From Pseudorhodoferax sp. Leaf267 (GTDB lineage Bacteria; Pseudomonadota; Gammaproteobacteria; Burkholderiales; Burkholderiaceae_C), in NCBI RefSeq assembly GCF_001422405.1, contig NZ_LMMV01000024.1, positions 33,047 to 97,046 of the forward strand: 64,000 bases of DNA, read 5' to 3'. The notes below the pieces were generated by a model that saw only the letters and a program-made list of their open reading frames with translations, was not told the origin of the DNA and did not search any database. Both the position numbers and the translations under genes were made by a program. Positions 57,755 through 64,000 of the stretch are shown here, piece after piece (within the stretch, counting starts at the first letter, position 1; each line of letters begins with the position of its first letter).

Positions 57755-59170
57755 ATGTCTTTCCGCTTGCTCACCGCCGCGGGTGCTGCCTTGGCACCGG
57801 CCGCGCCGGCCTGGTCCGCTGCCCCGGCGATCGTCGCGCTGCAGGTCAGCAGCCCGCTGGGGCCCGTCTGGGCGTGGACGCTGGGCATCCTGATGGGCCT
57901 GGTGATGGTGCTGCTCACGGTCTACACGGCGCGCCACTACGTCTTCTCGCTGAACCGGCTGTTCGGCCGCCAGCGCAACCCCTATGCCAGCCTGGTCACC
58001 GCCGACTGGCCGCGCGTGACGATCTTCGTGGCCGCGCACAACGAGGAAGACGTGATCCGGGACTGCCTCGAAAACCTGATGCTGGTCGACTACCCGGCCG
58101 ACCGCATGCAGGTGGTGCCGGTCAACGACCGCTCCACCGACCGCACGCGCGAGATCGTCGACGAGGTGGTCGCGCGCTACCCGGGCCGCATCACGCCGTT
58201 CCACCGCACCAGCGGCAAGCCGGGCAAGGCCGCGGCGCTGAAGGACGCCACCGAGACCATCGACACCGACTTCATCATCGTCTTCGATGCCGACTACATG
58301 CCCTCGCGCGGGCTGATCCGCCGGCTCATGGCGCCGTTCTTCGACCCCGAGGTCGGCGCCGTGATGGGCCGCGTCGTGCCGCACAACGTGGGCGCCAACC
58401 TGCTCACGCGGCTGCTGGACCTGGAGCGCGCCGGCGGCTACCAGGTCGACCAGCAGGCCCGCATGAACCTGGGCCTGGTGCCGCAGTACGGCGGCACGGT
58501 GGGCGGCATCCGCGTGAGCGCGCTGAAAGCCGTGGGCGGCTGGCATGACGACGTGCTGGCCGAGGACACGGACCTCACCTACCGCCTGCTGCTGGGCGGC
58601 TGGCGCACTGTCTACCACAACCGCGCCGAGTGCTACGAAGAGGTGCCGCAGAGCTGGGCCGTGCGCATGCGCCAGATCAAGCGCTGGTCCAAGGGCCACA
58701 ACCAGGCCATGGTGCGCCACTGTGGCGGCCTGCTGCGCAACCGCACGCTGCGCTGGACGGAGCGGCTGGACGGCTTCCTGCTGCTGGGCGTGTACATGAT
58801 GTCGCCCGTGCTGCTGCTGGGCTGGGTGCTCAGCGTGCTGATGTACTTCACGGTCAGCATGCAGTGGCTGGCGCCCGCGCTGCTGCTGATGGCCTTCATG
58901 GTGCACAGCGCGCTGGGCAACTTCGCGGCCTTCTTCGAGATCGCCACGGCCGTGCACCTGGACCGCTCCAACCGCCGCATCCGGCTGCTGGCGTTCTCGT
59001 TCCTGGGCTTCATCGTGAGCGCCGTGGCCATCGCGCGTTCGGTGATCGACCAGCTGCTGCTGGACCGCCTGGGCGGCGGCAAGTTCCACTGGGACAAGAC
59101 CGTGCGCTACCGCCGCGCCAGCCCTTCGCTGGGCCTGCCGGCCGCACCTTCGGCCAAGGTCGGCCCGTGA
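57755..59170 (+). CDS. Processive family 2 glycosyltransferase (BcsA/NfrB-like catalytic core)
   Basis: Inner-membrane glycosyltransferase (471 aa) likely to polymerise and extrude a polysaccharide. An N-terminal helix (WTLGILMGLVMVLLTVYTA) precedes the GT-A domain: RVTIFVAAHNEEDVI, VVPVNDRSTDRT, FDADYMPSR (DxD, about residue 178), LAEDTDLTYRLLLGG and QIKRWSKG, the Q-x-x-R-W motif of processive enzymes (about 307). Three or more C-terminal helices follow (FLLLGVYMMSPVLLLGWVLS onward). No PilZ domain is seen. Start at MSFRLL; the frame extends upstream without similarity. It heads a five-gene coupled operon. Confidence 0.9.
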   Translation: MSFRLLTAAGAALAPAAPAWSAAPAIVALQVSSPLGPVWAWTLGILMGLVMVLLTVYTARHYVFSLNRLFGRQRNPYASLVTADWPRVTIFVAAHNEEDVIRDCLENLMLVDYPADRMQVVPVNDRSTDRTREIVDEVVARYPGRITPFHRTSGKPGKAAALKDATETIDTDFIIVFDADYMPSRGLIRRLMAPFFDPEVGAVMGRVVPHNVGANLLTRLLDLERAGGYQVDQQARMNLGLVPQYGGTVGGIRVSALKAVGGWHDDVLAEDTDLTYRLLLGGWRTVYHNRAECYEEVPQSWAVRMRQIKRWSKGHNQAMVRHCGGLLRNRTLRWTERLDGFLLLGVYMMSPVLLLGWVLSVLMYFTVSMQWLAPALLLMAFMVHSALGNFAAFFEIATAVHLDRSNRRIRLLAFSFLGFIVSAVAIARSVIDQLLLDRLGGGKFHWDKTVRYRRASPSLGLPAAPSAKVGP

Positions 59171-60276
59171 CGCTGGCGCTGTTGGTGTTGCTCACGCTGT
59201 GCGCCATGGCGGTGCCCATGCTGCCGGCGTTCCTGGAATGGCGCCGGCCCAGCGACGTGCAGCCGTTGCCCATCGACGAGACCGATGCGCTGGACCCTCC
59301 GTTCCTGGCCCGCAGCTTCGCGGCGCGCCTGGCCGCCGCGGTGCAGGCCGGCCAGACGGAGCTGGGCCGCACCGAGATCGTGGCCGGCCCGCCCGCGGGC
59401 CAGCCCCTGGCGCTGACCGAGGCCGAGCGCACTGCCGGCGCCACCCACCGCCTGTGGCACGCCGCGGGCGACCTGCGGCTGCCCGACGGCATGGCCTTTT
59501 ATGCCGAGGTGGCGGCCAAGGGCGCGCTGCGCGCAGGCGAGCGCAGTGTGTGCAAGGCCTTGTGGGCCGGCGGCGCGCTGCGGCTGGGCCAGCAGTCGTC
59601 GGTGCTGCGCTGGGCGCATGGCGATGAGGTCTTCGTGGGCCAGGCCTGCGAGCTGGCCGGCCGCGTGACGGCCGAGCGGCTGCTGGTGCTGGCGCCGGGT
59701 GTGGGCTTCACGCTGCTGCATGCGCCGCGCCTGCAGTTTCTGCCGTATGTGGCGCCGGGAGCCGCCGTGCCGGCGACCACCGACGGCGCGGCGCTGACCG
59801 GCGTGCAGTGGGACGCCTCGGGCCGGCGTGCCATCGGCCAGGGCCCGCTCGCCGTGCCCGCGGGCACGGCCTGGCAGGGCGACCTGATCTGCCACGGCGA
59901 CCTGACGCTGGCGCCGCGCTGCGCCGTGCGCGGCAGCCTCAAGGTGCGCGGCCGGCTCACGGTCGGCGCGGGCTGCGTGATCCGCGGTGGCGTGTTCGCC
60001 GAAGACGCGATCGTGCTCGACGAAGCCTGCAGCGTGCAGGGCGTGCTGATGTCCGAGCGCAGCATCGCGCTGGGGGCGGGCTGCACGGTCGGCACGCTGG
60101 CCGTGCCGGCCAACGTGGCGGCGCCGCAGATCGACATCGGCGCCGGCGTGGTCGTGCACGGCACGGTCTGGGCCGGCGAGCAGGGCCGCTGCGTGGCGCC
60201 GCTGCCCGCGGCCGTGCCGGCCGGCGCCGGCGCCTGGCCATCGCAACCCGGTTCTCCACCGGCGGGCGCGCAGTGA
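59167..60276 (+). CDS. Membrane-anchored bactofilin-like beta-solenoid protein
   Basis: A 369-residue protein starting at GTG 59167, whose GTGA overlaps the glycosyltransferase stop. A hydrophobic anchor (LALLVLLTLCAMAVPMLPAFL) is followed by a poorly conserved middle region and, from about residue 225, by short repeats of the bactofilin/polymer-forming type (GDLICHGDLTLAPRCAVRGS, LKVRGRLTVGAGCVIRGGVF, SVQGVLMSERSIALGAGCTV). Such right-handed beta-helices polymerise or act as scaffolds. A scaffold organising the glycosyltransferase is my inference from position. Confidence 0.72.
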   Translation: MTLALLVLLTLCAMAVPMLPAFLEWRRPSDVQPLPIDETDALDPPFLARSFAARLAAAVQAGQTELGRTEIVAGPPAGQPLALTEAERTAGATHRLWHAAGDLRLPDGMAFYAEVAAKGALRAGERSVCKALWAGGALRLGQQSSVLRWAHGDEVFVGQACELAGRVTAERLLVLAPGVGFTLLHAPRLQFLPYVAPGAAVPATTDGAALTGVQWDASGRRAIGQGPLAVPAGTAWQGDLICHGDLTLAPRCAVRGSLKVRGRLTVGAGCVIRGGVFAEDAIVLDEACSVQGVLMSERSIALGAGCTVGTLAVPANVAAPQIDIGAGVVVHGTVWAGEQGRCVAPLPAAVPAGAGAWPSQPGSPPAGAQ

Positions 60277-62195
60277 GCGCCAAGCCCGTCACGACCCGGG
60301 TCTGGCTGATCCGGGGCGGCCTCCTGGTGCTGGCCGTCGTCGCGCTCGTCCTGCTGGGCGTCTTCGGCGGCGCGCGTGGTGGCGCCGCGGCGCCGACGCA
60401 CCTGGCGCTGTTGATCCCCGACGACCTGCCCGGCGACGACCTGCACGTGGTCGCTTGGCAGGACGCCGCGGCCGAGCTCGGCTTCAAGCTGACGGTGCTG
60501 CGCGCCTCCGAACTGCTGCGCGCCGGCACCCCGGCGCGCGATGCCGCGCTGATCCTGCCCGACCAGGTGCACCGCCGCATGAACGACGCGCTCATCGCCG
60601 TGCTGGAGCAGCGCGTGCGCGCCGGTGCCCGCCTGATGCTCGTGCACGACGCCGGCCTGGAGGCGCTGGACGGCGGCTACCACCCGGCGCAGTCGCGCCT
60701 GTCGGGCCTGGCCGGCGTGCGCTATGCGCTGTATGGCGAGCTGGGCGGGCGCATGTCGGGCGACCACGTGGCCTGGGTCGAGGGCGCGGCCGTGCCCATC
60801 CTGCGCCTGCCGCCCGGCAAGCTGATCCGCGATGGCGAGGACGAGCCCCTGTCGAGCAACCAGCCGCCGCCGCTGGACGAGGAGCCGCTGGCCGTCGTGG
60901 GCTACCACTACGGCCGGCTGCACTACCCCGTGTACAGCACGCGCGGCGTGTTTCCCGGCCGGCGCCTCATGCATGCCGAAGAGGGCAGCCTGCTCGCTGG
61001 CCTGCACAGCGTGGGCCTGGGGCAGGTGCTGTTCGTGAACCTGCCGCTGACCTACCTCAAGCTGCGCACCGATGGCCTGTTCCTGCACAGCTTCCTGCGC
61101 TATTTCGCGCAGGACGTGTCGGGGCTGCCGCAGCTCTCGCAGGTGCCCGATGCGCAGGGCGCGCTGATCATGAACTGGCATGTGGACGCGGCTGCCGCGG
61201 TGCCCGCCATCGAGACGCTGGACGCGCTGGGCGCGTTCGAGCAGGGGCCGTACTCCATCCACCTGACCGCCGGCCCGGATGTGGACAACCCCGGCGACGG
61301 CCAGGGCATGGACCTGGCGCGCAACGAACGCATGCAGCACTGGGTGCGCCGCTTCGTCGAGCGCGGTGACGAGGTCGGCAGCCACGGCGGATGGATCCAC
61401 AACGCCTTCGGCCGCGACGTCGACAAGCAGGCGCCGCAGCGCTCCATCGGGCTGATCGAGCGCAACTTCGCGGCCGTGCGCGCCGCCAGCGGCCAGCCGG
61501 TGCGCGAGTACTCGGCGCCCATGGGAAACCACCCGGCCTGGACCACGCCCTGGCTGCGCGCGCAGGGCATCCAGGCCTACTACTTCACCGGCGACATCGG
61601 CATGGCGCCCACGCGCAGCTACCAGGGCGGCAAGCGCGGCCCCTCGGGCATGTGGGCCTTCCCGGTGCTGAGCTACGGCGCACACGCCAGCTTCGAGGAA
61701 ACCTCGATGGCCGGCATCGCCGACCGCGACATCGGCGCCTGGCTCAAGGACGTGGCCGACTTCTGCGCCCAGTACCACACGGTGCGGCTGGTGTACTTCC
61801 ACCCGCCCGGCGTGGCGCTGTTTCCCGACGCGTTCCGCGACTGGATCCGCCACACCGCCAAGCTGGTCGAGGAGCGCTCGCTGCGCTGGATCACCATGGC
61901 CCAGTACGCGGCCTTCGCCAACGAGCGCCTGGCCGTCGAATGGGACACCCGCGTCGAAGACGCCGCGACCGAACTGCTGCAGGCCAGCCACCCGCGTTCG
62001 CTGGCGCACTTCGCCTGGCTGCTGCCGCTGGCGCGCTACGACATGCCGCGCGTGCTCGAGGGCCAGGCCCAGGTCGTGCGCGACGGCGATGCCTGGCGTG
62101 TCGTCGCCGGGGCCTCCACCCGGTTGCGCCTGCAACTGCCGCTGCGCGCCAATGTGCCGGCGCCCGAATCCTTCACTCCCACCGCCGCGCCATGA
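60273..62195 (+). CDS. Polysaccharide deacetylase-like membrane-anchored protein
   Basis: A 640-residue protein from GTG 60273, which overlaps the preceding stop (GTGA). One N-terminal anchor (LIRGGLLVLAVVALVLLGVFG), then a region with a glutamine-amidotransferase/ThuA-like look (LLIPDDLPGDDLHVVAWQDAA), then from about residue 305 a polysaccharide-deacetylase-like (NodB fold) domain: NWHVDAAAAV, DEVGSHGGWIHNAFG (His pair spaced by four rather than three), EYSAPMGNHPAWTTPWLRAQG and VYFHPPGV. The usual TFDDG is replaced by NWHVD, so activity is uncertain. Export and position beside WecB suggest N-deacetylation of an aminosugar polymer. Confidence 0.72.
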   Translation: MSAKPVTTRVWLIRGGLLVLAVVALVLLGVFGGARGGAAAPTHLALLIPDDLPGDDLHVVAWQDAAAELGFKLTVLRASELLRAGTPARDAALILPDQVHRRMNDALIAVLEQRVRAGARLMLVHDAGLEALDGGYHPAQSRLSGLAGVRYALYGELGGRMSGDHVAWVEGAAVPILRLPPGKLIRDGEDEPLSSNQPPPLDEEPLAVVGYHYGRLHYPVYSTRGVFPGRRLMHAEEGSLLAGLHSVGLGQVLFVNLPLTYLKLRTDGLFLHSFLRYFAQDVSGLPQLSQVPDAQGALIMNWHVDAAAAVPAIETLDALGAFEQGPYSIHLTAGPDVDNPGDGQGMDLARNERMQHWVRRFVERGDEVGSHGGWIHNAFGRDVDKQAPQRSIGLIERNFAAVRAASGQPVREYSAPMGNHPAWTTPWLRAQGIQAYYFTGDIGMAPTRSYQGGKRGPSGMWAFPVLSYGAHASFEETSMAGIADRDIGAWLKDVADFCAQYHTVRLVYFHPPGVALFPDAFRDWIRHTAKLVEERSLRWITMAQYAAFANERLAVEWDTRVEDAATELLQASHPRSLAHFAWLLPLARYDMPRVLEGQAQVVRDGDAWRVVAGASTRLRLQLPLRANVPAPESFTPTAAP

Positions 62196-63364
62196 CGCAA
62201 CCCAACTCTCCGTCGGCCAGGCCGATCCTGATCTCCGTCGGCACCCGCCCCGAAATCATCAAGATGGCGCCCGTCTACGCCGAGCTGCGCCGCCGCGGCA
62301 TGCCCGTGGCCTGGGTGCACAGCGGCCAGCACCGCGAGATGGCCGAGTCGCTGTACGACTTCTTCGACATCCGGCCGCAGTACGAGCTGCAGCTCGACCG
62401 CCGCAACGCCAGCCTGGCCCACCTGAACGCCTTGCTGCTCGAACGCCTGTCCGAGGTCTACGAACAGGCCCGGCCCGCGGCCGTGCTGGTGCACGGCGAC
62501 ACCACGAGCACGCTGGCCTCGGCGCAGGCCGCGTTCTACCTGGACTTGCCCGTCGGCCATGTCGAGGCCGGGCTGCGCACCTTCATCCCACGCGAGCCCT
62601 TCCCCGAGGAGAAGAACCGCGAGATCACGGCGCGGCTGGCGCGCTGGCATTTCGCGCCCACGCCCGGCGCCGCGGCCAACCTGGCGCGCGAAGGCATCGC
62701 GGCCAGCGGCGTGCACATGGTGGGCAACACCGCCGTCGACGCCGCGCTGGCCGGCGCCAGCCGGCTGGTGACCCTGCTGGCCAGCGGCGCGCTGCAGCTG
62801 CCCGAGCCGCTGCGGCGGCTGCAGCCCCACCTGGCGCAGGGCCGGCTGATCACCGTCACCGCGCACCGGCGCGAGAACTGGGGGCCGGGCATCCGCGACA
62901 TCGCGCGTGCCGTGGCGCGCCTGCTGCAGGCCGACCCGCGCCTGGCCGTGGCCTGGCCCGTGCATGGCAACCCGGCCGTGGCCGACATCGTGCACGCCGA
63001 GCTCGGCGAATTGGCCCAGCGGCTGGAAGGCCGGCTGTGCCTGTGCCCGCCGCTGGACTACCCGGCGCTGCTGTGGTGCCTGCAGCACAGCGCGCTGGCG
63101 CTGACCGACTCGGGCGGCATCCAGGAGGAGGGCGCCGCGCTGTCGCGCCCGGTCCTGGTGCTGCGCGACACCACCGAGCGGCCCGAACTCATCGAGGCCG
63201 GCGCCGGCCTGATCGTGGGCACCGACATGCAGCGCATCGTGGGCGTCGTCACGCGCCTGCTCAACGAAGGCGACGAGCTGGCGCGCATGCGCGCCGCCGT
63301 GAACCCGTTCGGCGATGGCAAGACCTCGCAGCGCATCGCCGACGTGCTGGGCAAGGCGCTGTGA
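62192..63364 (+). CDS. wecB: UDP-N-acetylglucosamine 2-epimerase (non-hydrolysing)
   Basis: Converts UDP-GlcNAc to UDP-ManNAc (390 aa, normal length). VGTRPEIIKMAPVYAEL is the N-terminal Rossmann motif; catalytic residues are D in HGDTTSTLASAQ, E in GHVEAGLRT, E in FPEEKNREI and H in TAHRREN. The C-terminal TDSGGIQEEGAAL binds UDP. The ATG overlaps the previous stop (ATGA). Supplying UDP-ManNAc is the clearest clue to the sugar made by this operon. Confidence 0.95.
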   Translation: MTQPNSPSARPILISVGTRPEIIKMAPVYAELRRRGMPVAWVHSGQHREMAESLYDFFDIRPQYELQLDRRNASLAHLNALLLERLSEVYEQARPAAVLVHGDTTSTLASAQAAFYLDLPVGHVEAGLRTFIPREPFPEEKNREITARLARWHFAPTPGAAANLAREGIAASGVHMVGNTAVDAALAGASRLVTLLASGALQLPEPLRRLQPHLAQGRLITVTAHRRENWGPGIRDIARAVARLLQADPRLAVAWPVHGNPAVADIVHAELGELAQRLEGRLCLCPPLDYPALLWCLQHSALALTDSGGIQEEGAALSRPVLVLRDTTERPELIEAGAGLIVGTDMQRIVGVVTRLLNEGDELARMRAAVNPFGDGKTSQRIADVLGKAL

Positions 63365-64000
63365 ACCAGCGCACCCTGGCCCTGCTGCTGGCCTGCGCGC
63401 TGCCGGCCGCGGGCGCACTGGCGCAAGCCGTCGATGCGTTGCCGCAGGCGGTCGAGGCCCTGCCGCTGCCGGCCGCGCCGCCACCGGCGGCCGCCGAGGC
63501 GCCGCCGCGCACCACCTGGGATCTGCAGACCTCGCGCAGCGCACTGACGGCCGGCCTGCCCGATGGCGAGGCGCAGAACCTGCGCGGCGCCATCACCATG
63601 GCGCCAGGCCATGTGCTGCAGATCGACGCGCTGAACGAGCGCAAGTTCGGCGCGCGCGGCGGCGTGCTGGCCGTGGCCTACACGGGCACGCTGTCGGAGC
63701 GGTGGTACCTGACCCACACGCTGGCGGCCGGCACCGGCGGGCCGAACTGGGCCAACGCGCGCACCGACCTGCAGGTCTCGCGCAAGTGGCTGTCGCAGGG
63801 CCAGCTGGTGACCTCGCTGGCGGTCTACAAGGCCTGGTTCGACAACGACCGCAGCGACCTCGGCTCGCGCCTGTCGCTGGCCTGGTACCTGCCCGGCAAT
63901 GTGGTGCTGGAGCACGGCATGGTGTTCAACGTCAGCCAGCCCGGCGACGTGGCCTCGCACATGCCGTATGCCGCCATCACGGTGGGCCGCGAGGGCTGGC
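63361..64000 (+). CDS. YaiO-like outer-membrane beta-barrel protein, 5' part (runs off the window)
   Basis: The frame opens at GTG 63361, overlapping the wecB stop (GTGA), and is still open at the window end (213 codons). A signal peptide (RTLALLLACALPAAGALAQA) is followed by a Pro/Ala-rich segment and alternating beta-strand-like sequence (WDLQTSRSALTAGLPDGEAQ, VLAVAYTGTLSERWYLTHTL, NARTDLQVSRKWLSQGQLVT, SRLSLAWYLPGNVVLEHGMV). This matches the YaiO-type outer-membrane barrel pattern, fit to be the secretion pore of the polysaccharide. Because it is truncated here, the family call is moderate. Confidence 0.65.
   Translation, partial: MNQRTLALLLACALPAAGALAQAVDALPQAVEALPLPAAPPPAAAEAPPRTTWDLQTSRSALTAGLPDGEAQNLRGAITMAPGHVLQIDALNERKFGARGGVLAVAYTGTLSERWYLTHTLAAGTGGPNWANARTDLQVSRKWLSQGQLVTSLAVYKAWFDNDRSDLGSRLSLAWYLPGNVVLEHGMVFNVSQPGDVASHMPYAAITVGREGW

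Follow-up and report, generated by a model that had tools for sequence, protein, structure and literature searches.

The last part of the window, a 64,000-nucleotide stretch of the 6.5-Mb genome of Pseudorhodoferax sp. Leaf267 (positions 33047-97046 of contig NZ_LMMV01000024.1), carries the beginning of an exopolysaccharide operon in which the gene of a processive family 2 glycosyltransferase (GT2) is followed at once by the gene of a membrane-anchored bactofilin, and this pairing of a synthase with a cytoskeletal protein is the surprising part of the system. The genes, lettered A to H, are listed below; the coordinates of F, G and H are window equivalents, read off a 20-kb stretch (L009) that extends past the window end.

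57755-59170, + strand: A, processive GT2 synthase (471 amino acids (aa), ATG start)
59167-60276, + strand: B, bactofilin with one N-terminal membrane anchor (369 aa, GTG start)
60273-62195, + strand: C, membrane-anchored PelA-like protein, likely a carbohydrate deacetylase (640 aa, GTG start)
62192-63364, + strand: D, WecB, non-hydrolysing UDP-GlcNAc 2-epimerase (390 aa, ATG start)
63361-64212, + strand: E, YaiO-family outer-membrane beta-barrel (283 aa, GTG start; ends 212 bases past the window)
64214-65032, + strand: F, membrane protein (272 aa; downstream of the window)
65022-66203, + strand: G, secreted-looking protein (393 aa; signal-peptide-like start by eye; downstream of the window)
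66268-68490, + strand: H, second deacetylase-like protein (740 aa from the ATG; downstream of the window)

Consecutive genes from A to E overlap by four bases (GTGA, GTGA, ATGA and GTGA, in order), as a preliminary description of the window had reported and as we confirm at 57755-64212. The 'five-gene' system of that description proved to be an effect of the window edge: when the contig is extended past position 64000, the operon continues co-directionally with F, G and H, separated from E by 1 bp, with an 11-bp overlap between F and G and a gap of 64 bp (ATG start) or 4 bp (GTG start) between G and H. Its proposal that the genes form one co-expressed exopolysaccharide set is supported, and family matches bear out the bactofilin-like, deacetylase-like, WecB and YaiO-like identities that it had assigned. 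Likewise, none of the nine proteins scanned with Pfam and NCBIfam matches PilZ, BcsB or BcsC. No promoter- or terminator-like site was found ahead of the operon, and Rfam gave no match in L009.

Conservation of the gene set

A scan of GTDB genomes with an alignment of C returned 136 relatives, of which the best 80 were kept, corresponding to 79 loci; pooled with loci from family searches, and with four duplicates removed, they yielded 83 distinct loci. A co-occurrence of the families, for which the preliminary description had suggested a search, is borne out here, in that 66 of the 83 hold A to F (GT2 synthase, bactofilin, PelA-like deacetylase, WecB, YaiO barrel and F membrane protein), 52 of them together with G, while 8 hold C only and 9 are partial, several of these on short contigs. 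By record titles, 18 of the 66 are from Acidobacteriota and 4 from Gammaproteobacteria, and the remaining 44 are assigned to Burkholderiales genera, to Betaproteobacteria, to 'Proteobacteria' or to genomes of the window's order; in Bradyrhizobium, one locus has A to D. Because C had been the bait, 300 genomes drawn from the order were also searched with F and with A. F was found in 6 genomes, in each of which A, B, D and E adjoin it, and A (E<=1e-100) in 7, all with B and D beside it, the locus in one of them (G226) lying on a 5.4-kb contig; the C profile gave five strong and three weak matches in the same 300 genomes. Dozens of species share the set and its close packing, so that we do not regard it as a product of chance. 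All 71 loci with both A and B have the two side by side (the Escherichia loci described below stand outside this count), and E lies directly before F in 70 of 71.

Synthase relatives are also present in 2 of 72,556 plasmid records (E<=1e-60), namely a Cupriavidus megaplasmid that carries the full set and a conjugative IncI plasmid of Escherichia fergusonii; phage records gave no match at E<=1e-50. On the E. fergusonii plasmid, profiles identify GT2, wecB, YaiO, bactofilin, F-type and G-type proteins, to which an acyltransferase is added, and there is no match to the C or H profile. This variant recurs in the same order in three E. coli chromosomes, AH19B041 and NCTC8623 (by profiles) and A41 (by annotation and Pfam, its bactofilin scoring 20.5 bits, below the Pfam cut-off); the synthase gene was found in 3 of 5,426 E. 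coli genomes. The RefSeq annotations viewed name single parts and no system.

L165:4338-11206, L167:8669-15580, L168 (same order) and L171:2367-9260: Escherichia variant clusters, on the E. fergusonii plasmid and three E. coli chromosomes

The Escherichia clusters lie near DsbA-like and PAPS-reductase-type genes, with an IbrB-like gene near the E. coli ones, and in A41 a gene of the polysaccharide deacetylase family, annotated as frameshifted, stands just behind the cluster (L171:9726-10567). Other carriers show departures of their own. In Lysobacter terrigena (L077), two extra, lower-scoring GT2 genes precede E-F-A-B-C and wecB is on the opposite strand, and four Cupriavidus loci (L087, L096, L098, L101) have a small conserved secreted-looking protein near the wecB and deacetylase genes. 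C/H-type deacetylases occur without the other families in L044, L062, L068, L106, L107, L115, L119 and L121, some of which are short stretches, for example twice in one Polaromonas genome. In the window's own genome, the operon is followed by a GGDEF diguanylate cyclase gene (L009:13714-14961, ~4.7 kb past the window end), by a third C-like deacetylase gene split over two frames (L009:15385-17177), which has intact counterparts in other members of the family, and then by unrelated genes. We set aside a general control of the cluster by cyclic di-GMP, since GGDEF genes occur in only 11 of 87 loci (duplicates included), 6 of them from Sphaerotilus, Leptothrix or close kin.

Proposed pathway and its alternatives

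We propose, with a probability of about 0.55, that the cluster encodes a synthase-dependent system for a secreted polymer that contains N-acetylmannosamine (ManNAc) and is partly de-N-acetylated (or acylated), and that an anchored cytosolic bactofilin organizes the synthase. WecB (D) would make the uridine diphosphate (UDP) sugar UDP-ManNAc, which the inner-membrane GT2 (A) would polymerize, alone or with UDP-N-acetylglucosamine (UDP-GlcNAc), while translocating the product to the periplasm, F probably taking part. Anchored C and secreted H would then remove part of the N-acetyl groups, an acyltransferase modifying the chain in the Escherichia variant, while the alpha/alpha-toroid protein G would trim or clear chains and the YaiO barrel E would let the polymer out. 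B, held to the inner membrane by one helix, would polymerize on its cytosolic side and gather or position the synthase complexes. The proposal starts from the gene set and its conservation, the catalytic residues kept in A and D, the predicted folds of C and of a relative of G, and the identity and predicted topology of the bactofilin; for the substrate, the polymer structure, deacetylation, the scaffold role and the roles of F and G it draws on what is known of PgaC, PelA, WecB and bactofilins.

The synthase matches Pfam Glyco_tranf_2_3 (3e-33), and the motifs of processive synthases (D125, D178xD180, E270-D271 and Q307xxR310-W311) are invariant in all 72 family rows, duplicates included; the third motif of the window's A reads EDT rather than TED. 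Its catalytic domain is presumably cytosolic, and accompanied by several hydrophobic helices. Among the four E. coli synthases compared, A is by family-profile score nearest to PgaC (300.8 bits) rather than to NfrB (24.8 bits), with BcsA (94.0) and YaiP (82.8) in between; it matches the PgaC_IcaA model TIGR03937 with 127.8 bits and is the sole PgaC-like match in the window genome at E<=1e-20. These scores could speak for a divergent system of the poly-N-acetylglucosamine (PNAG) type, in which a beta-linked GlcNAc polymer would be deacetylated by C, as by PgaB, and WecB would supply a minor residue or a side product. However, the TIGR03937 score is far below the cut-off of 422.3, which no protein of the genome exceeds, and at E<=10 the eight family profiles give no match to PgaA, PgaB or PgaD, that of A to PgaC being the sole link to the Pga proteins, in a search that could miss a distant relation, since profile E misses even YaiO of E. 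coli K-12. Moreover, wecB, present in the stretch in 70 of the 83 loci, has been exchanged rather than dropped. A PNAG-type system is thus unlikely in our view, although it is the alternative that survives best.

By its family matches, B is a bactofilin. Its own score against Pfam Bactofilin (PF04519; E 4e-6, 27.4 bits) falls just short of the cut-off of 27.9, and this family is the commonest match among its relatives (23 of 24 at E<=0.01); the best solved match is the bactofilin 6ria (E 7.8e-4). Lysine and arginine residues after the anchor outnumber those before it in all 69 relatives scored (means 2.45 and 0.10), from which the positive-inside rule predicts an N-out/C-in protein with the bactofilin domain in the cytosol. 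Alginate systems, on the other hand, possess in AlgG a beta-helix protein that binds or modifies the polymer, and B might similarly be a periplasmic beta-helix rather than a cytoskeletal scaffold. Such a role would suit the weaker matches of B relatives to other beta-helix families (Ice_binding in 6 of 24, LbH_EIF2B in 4 of 24) and the solved ice-binding beta-helices that nearly tie with 6ria at 1e-3, and most other secreted parts of the system would act in the periplasm. It agrees poorly with the dominance of Bactofilin matches and the one-sided charges, as well as with the recurrence of the anchor motif in the E. coli version and in E. fergusonii, where the bactofilin is annotated with 165 aa but the open frame extends upstream of that start and includes the motif. 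We therefore consider a periplasmic B slightly less probable still than a PNAG-type system. In the Sphaerotilus and Leptothrix relatives (L042, L051-L054, L118), B is much longer (~525 aa) and has a second solenoid stretch.

D matches Epimerase_2 (2e-97) and scores 367.5 bits against the wecB model TIGR00236 (cut-off 210.15). Twelve positions were checked, numbered as in the E. coli enzyme: ten (R10, K15, D95, E117, E131, R135, H213, S290, G292 and E296) show no change in 70 of 70 rows, a count that includes duplicates, and those aligned to K205 and G212 vary. It is conceivable, but improbable, that this WecB feeds another pathway, toward O-antigen or another ManNAc-derived sugar, and is merely located in the operon. 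In keeping with that idea, the window genome has a second wecB (contig C1), further copies occur in 11 of the 24 cluster genomes searched, and two clusters (L084 and L092) are without wecB, their genomes carrying it on another contig. Yet in 13 of the 24 (genome completeness not being stated) the only copy found is, by position, that of the cluster, and the gene changes place (it can precede A, lie between C and E or between G and E, or be encoded on the opposite strand) with its presence mostly kept. The cluster in E. coli brings a wecB, 43% identical to K-12 WecB, although K-12 has its own in the operon for enterobacterial common antigen (ECA). No O-antigen or ECA genes were noticed up to the end of L009, and the preliminary assignment of wecB to this operon is supported. 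When 73 WecBs are placed in a maximum-likelihood tree, those of the clusters do not form one group relative to eight outside WecBs (E. coli WecB included), with at least four label changes forced by starred branches, on which this statement rests, as there are only eight outside rows and L085, L114, L077 and L045 form long branches. This indicates that the clusters have acquired or replaced their WecB repeatedly and retained the other genes of the set, and a gene that is exchanged yet kept argues that the system needs the product of WecB, a conclusion that concerns the need and not the polymer sugar itself. That the polymer is made from ManNAc is what we infer, on better grounds than the preliminary description had.

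C reaches Pfam Polysacc_deac_1 at 8e-4, below the cut-off, the family being matched by 39 of 49 relatives (E<=0.01), and has no sequence match to any solved PDB chain. In its AlphaFold2 model (predicted local distance difference test score, pLDDT, 93.5), the first Foldseek match is PelA (9cgy; E 2e-11, 657 columns, template modeling (TM) score 0.44, root-mean-square deviation (rmsd) 10.5), and the deacetylase domain is predicted to have a CE4-like fold (Z 21.8 to 3qbu over 235 residues, rmsd 2.6, with ArnD 8t0j and 3rxz within 1 Z). The 50 entries that a second aligner (VIA-align) lists for C do not include PelA, an absence that we did not use as evidence. Our reading of C as a deacetylase follows from these PelA-like and CE4-like features, and on the modeled fold such activity is likely. 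Residues H303, H371, H376 and H510 are conserved in 49 of 49 relatives and D305 in 44 of 49, D305, H371 and H376 being the candidates for the metal-binding Asp/His/His of a CE4-like enzyme. Motif 1 is NxHxD and motif 2 HxxxxH, as compared with HxDxD and HxxxH in PelA (PMC12022489, in the part available). The topology of its anchor is less clear than that of B, in that lysine and arginine before the helix exceed those after it in 45 of 78 relatives, with the reverse in 14 of 78. The closest named relatives of the window's C (76%) are from Variovorax boronicumulans and Pseudorhodoferax aquiterrae.

E is assigned by TIGR04390 (E 5e-34, 118.2 bits, cut-off 32) and Pfam YaiO (3.5e-14), and neither Pfam nor NCBIfam found a TPR family in it. 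A sequence search with the G profile gave chance-like matches only. The G protein of a Cupriavidus relative (L098), 23% identical to that of the operon, is predicted to be an alpha/alpha toroid (pLDDT 94.4), its nearest solved fold being the methylmannose polysaccharide hydrolase MmpH (7qsj; Foldseek E 1.3e-5, TM 0.58). With the second aligner MmpH (Z 21.8, rmsd 3.6 over 277) is tied with dextran dextrinase 9ju0 at 21.2, and many other hydrolases and BcsZ follow further down the structural match list; the model thus shows a predicted fold, not a substrate. G-type matches in the Methylococcaceae loci L057 and L061 are ~610 aa long, and a scan of 40 G members gave a single match each to the CBM_25, fn3 and RGI_lyase models.

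Several observations weigh against the pathway that we propose. The synthase resembles PgaC, which is a GlcNAc polymerase, and two clusters, L084 and L092, are complete from A to G except for wecB, which is missing over >21 kb. In C the base aspartate of motif 1 is absent, so that its activity is not certain. C is moreover the least constant core part, since it is absent from clusters L128 and L129 and a profile search did not find it anywhere in genomes G250 and G226; in Escherichia an acyltransferase takes its place. F has no known relative, none of 25 members matching Pfam, and 14 loci with all of A to F are without G. The adjacency of A and B is not universal, as Escherichia has the two at opposite operon ends, with the bactofilin gene first and the synthase gene last. 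Finally, the set is rare, being present in 6 or 7 of the 300 genomes of the order (~2%).

Relation to described systems

By its logic, the nearest described system is the E. coli Nfr system for the N4 glycan receptor (NGR), made up of NfrA, NfrB, YbcH and WecB (PMC8669469, PMC8669472, in the parts available), to which the preliminary description had drawn an analogy. The precursor logic of that analogy stands: both have a GT2, a proposed supply of UDP-ManNAc by WecB and an outer-membrane barrel, and, according to the available part of PMC8669469, wecB genes adjoin nfrB where no other wecB exists. Close kinship does not stand, and true membership in the Nfr system is highly improbable, because the synthase is PgaC-like, with only 24.8 bits to NfrB and only glycosyltransferase families (no MshEN-type domain) found in A by Pfam and NCBIfam, the barrel is without TPR and of a type whose model matches K-12 YaiO and not NfrA (that profile E misses NfrA says nothing, since it misses K-12 YaiO too), and YbcH matches none of the eight profiles. 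The Pseudorhodoferax operon further differs in having a bactofilin, a PelA-like deacetylase, an alpha/alpha-toroid protein and F.

With pgaABCD, the operon shares the closest synthase family and the union of a deacetylase and an outer-membrane pore in one operon, and it differs, beyond the PgaC score and the PgaA, PgaB and PgaD profiles discussed above, in its added WecB and bactofilin. With pelABCDEFG the likeness lies in C, which resembles the multidomain PelA (alpha/beta domain, CE domain, beta-rich end) but is too short for the N-terminal hydrolase domain of PelA and has other residues in motifs 1 and 2; the synthase is PgaC-like and comes with WecB. E. coli K-12 has at its yai locus a GT2, an acyltransferase and a YaiO barrel, and the Escherichia versions of the cluster likewise include an acyltransferase. 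No bactofilin or wecB is annotated in the 12 kb of K-12 viewed, however; the GT2 is ~25% identical, and the other parts gave no tblastn match at E<=0.01.

L126:2070-5936: E. coli K-12 yaiO-yaiX-yaiP (barrel, acyltransferase broken by IS2, GT2)

A cytoskeletal element has been connected with polymer secretion in Gluconacetobacter, where a cytoplasmic cortical belt under the cellulose secretion sites is proposed to align the synthases (PMC7811197). The available part of that paper does not name the belt protein, whereas in the present system the cytoskeletal gene lies inside the operon and adjoins the synthase gene in most carriers.

Other candidates were set aside. The cluster occurs in both Sphaerotilus and Leptothrix, and its other carriers are not known as sheathed; we therefore did not retain the sheath polymer as a general function, and the sheath literature on these genera (including PMC11412304), as far as available, does not show the locus. 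A cytoskeletal gene in the twisted-stalk cluster (PMC8250860) was a further candidate, but the part of the paper available shows Sfz2, a T2SS-E/GT2 fusion, and is without the word 'cytoskeletal'. The exopolysaccharide clusters with deacetylase genes in Rubrivivax, Janthinobacterium and Thauera (PMC3684757, PMC5080296, PMC4784049) are large and, by the genes named in the available parts, capsule-like; 'bactofilin' is absent from those of the first two papers, the third not having been searched for it. The bacterial operons with Agd3/CE18 (PMC7229062) combine GH114 with Pel-type parts, again with no 'bactofilin' in the available text, and C is without sequence match to solved chains. In the accessible part of an operon survey (PMC7112194), bactofilin, epimerase, YaiO and wecB do not occur. 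The preliminary description had not recognized the combination as a described system, and the open-access literature, most subscription journals and bioRxiv lying outside this scope, contained no description that we could find.

Significance for polymer secretion

Going a step further than the pathway proposed above, we tentatively consider that the anchored bactofilin may be a dedicated structural subunit of the synthase that forms a cytoskeletal track, and that the cluster may represent a new class of systems making poly-ManNAc or a GlcNAc/ManNAc polymer, cationic through partial de-N-acetylation to mannosamine, which would have spread from phylum to phylum and reached a conjugative plasmid. 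We hold this wider view to be possible rather than probable.

Synthase-dependent exopolysaccharides such as cellulose, PNAG, Pel and alginate are main polymers of biofilm matrices, and the placement of their synthases on the cell is a largely open question. As a cytoskeletal gene here travels with the synthase gene across phyla, usually adjoining it, this question becomes testable by deletion of a single gene. Carriers of the cluster include environmental Ralstonia, Cupriavidus, Collimonas, Comamonas, Sphaerotilus and Acidobacteriota, together with rare Escherichia, and, if our reading is true, a ManNAc-based deacetylated polymer would add to the known chemistry of the matrix and might constitute a further type of phage receptor.

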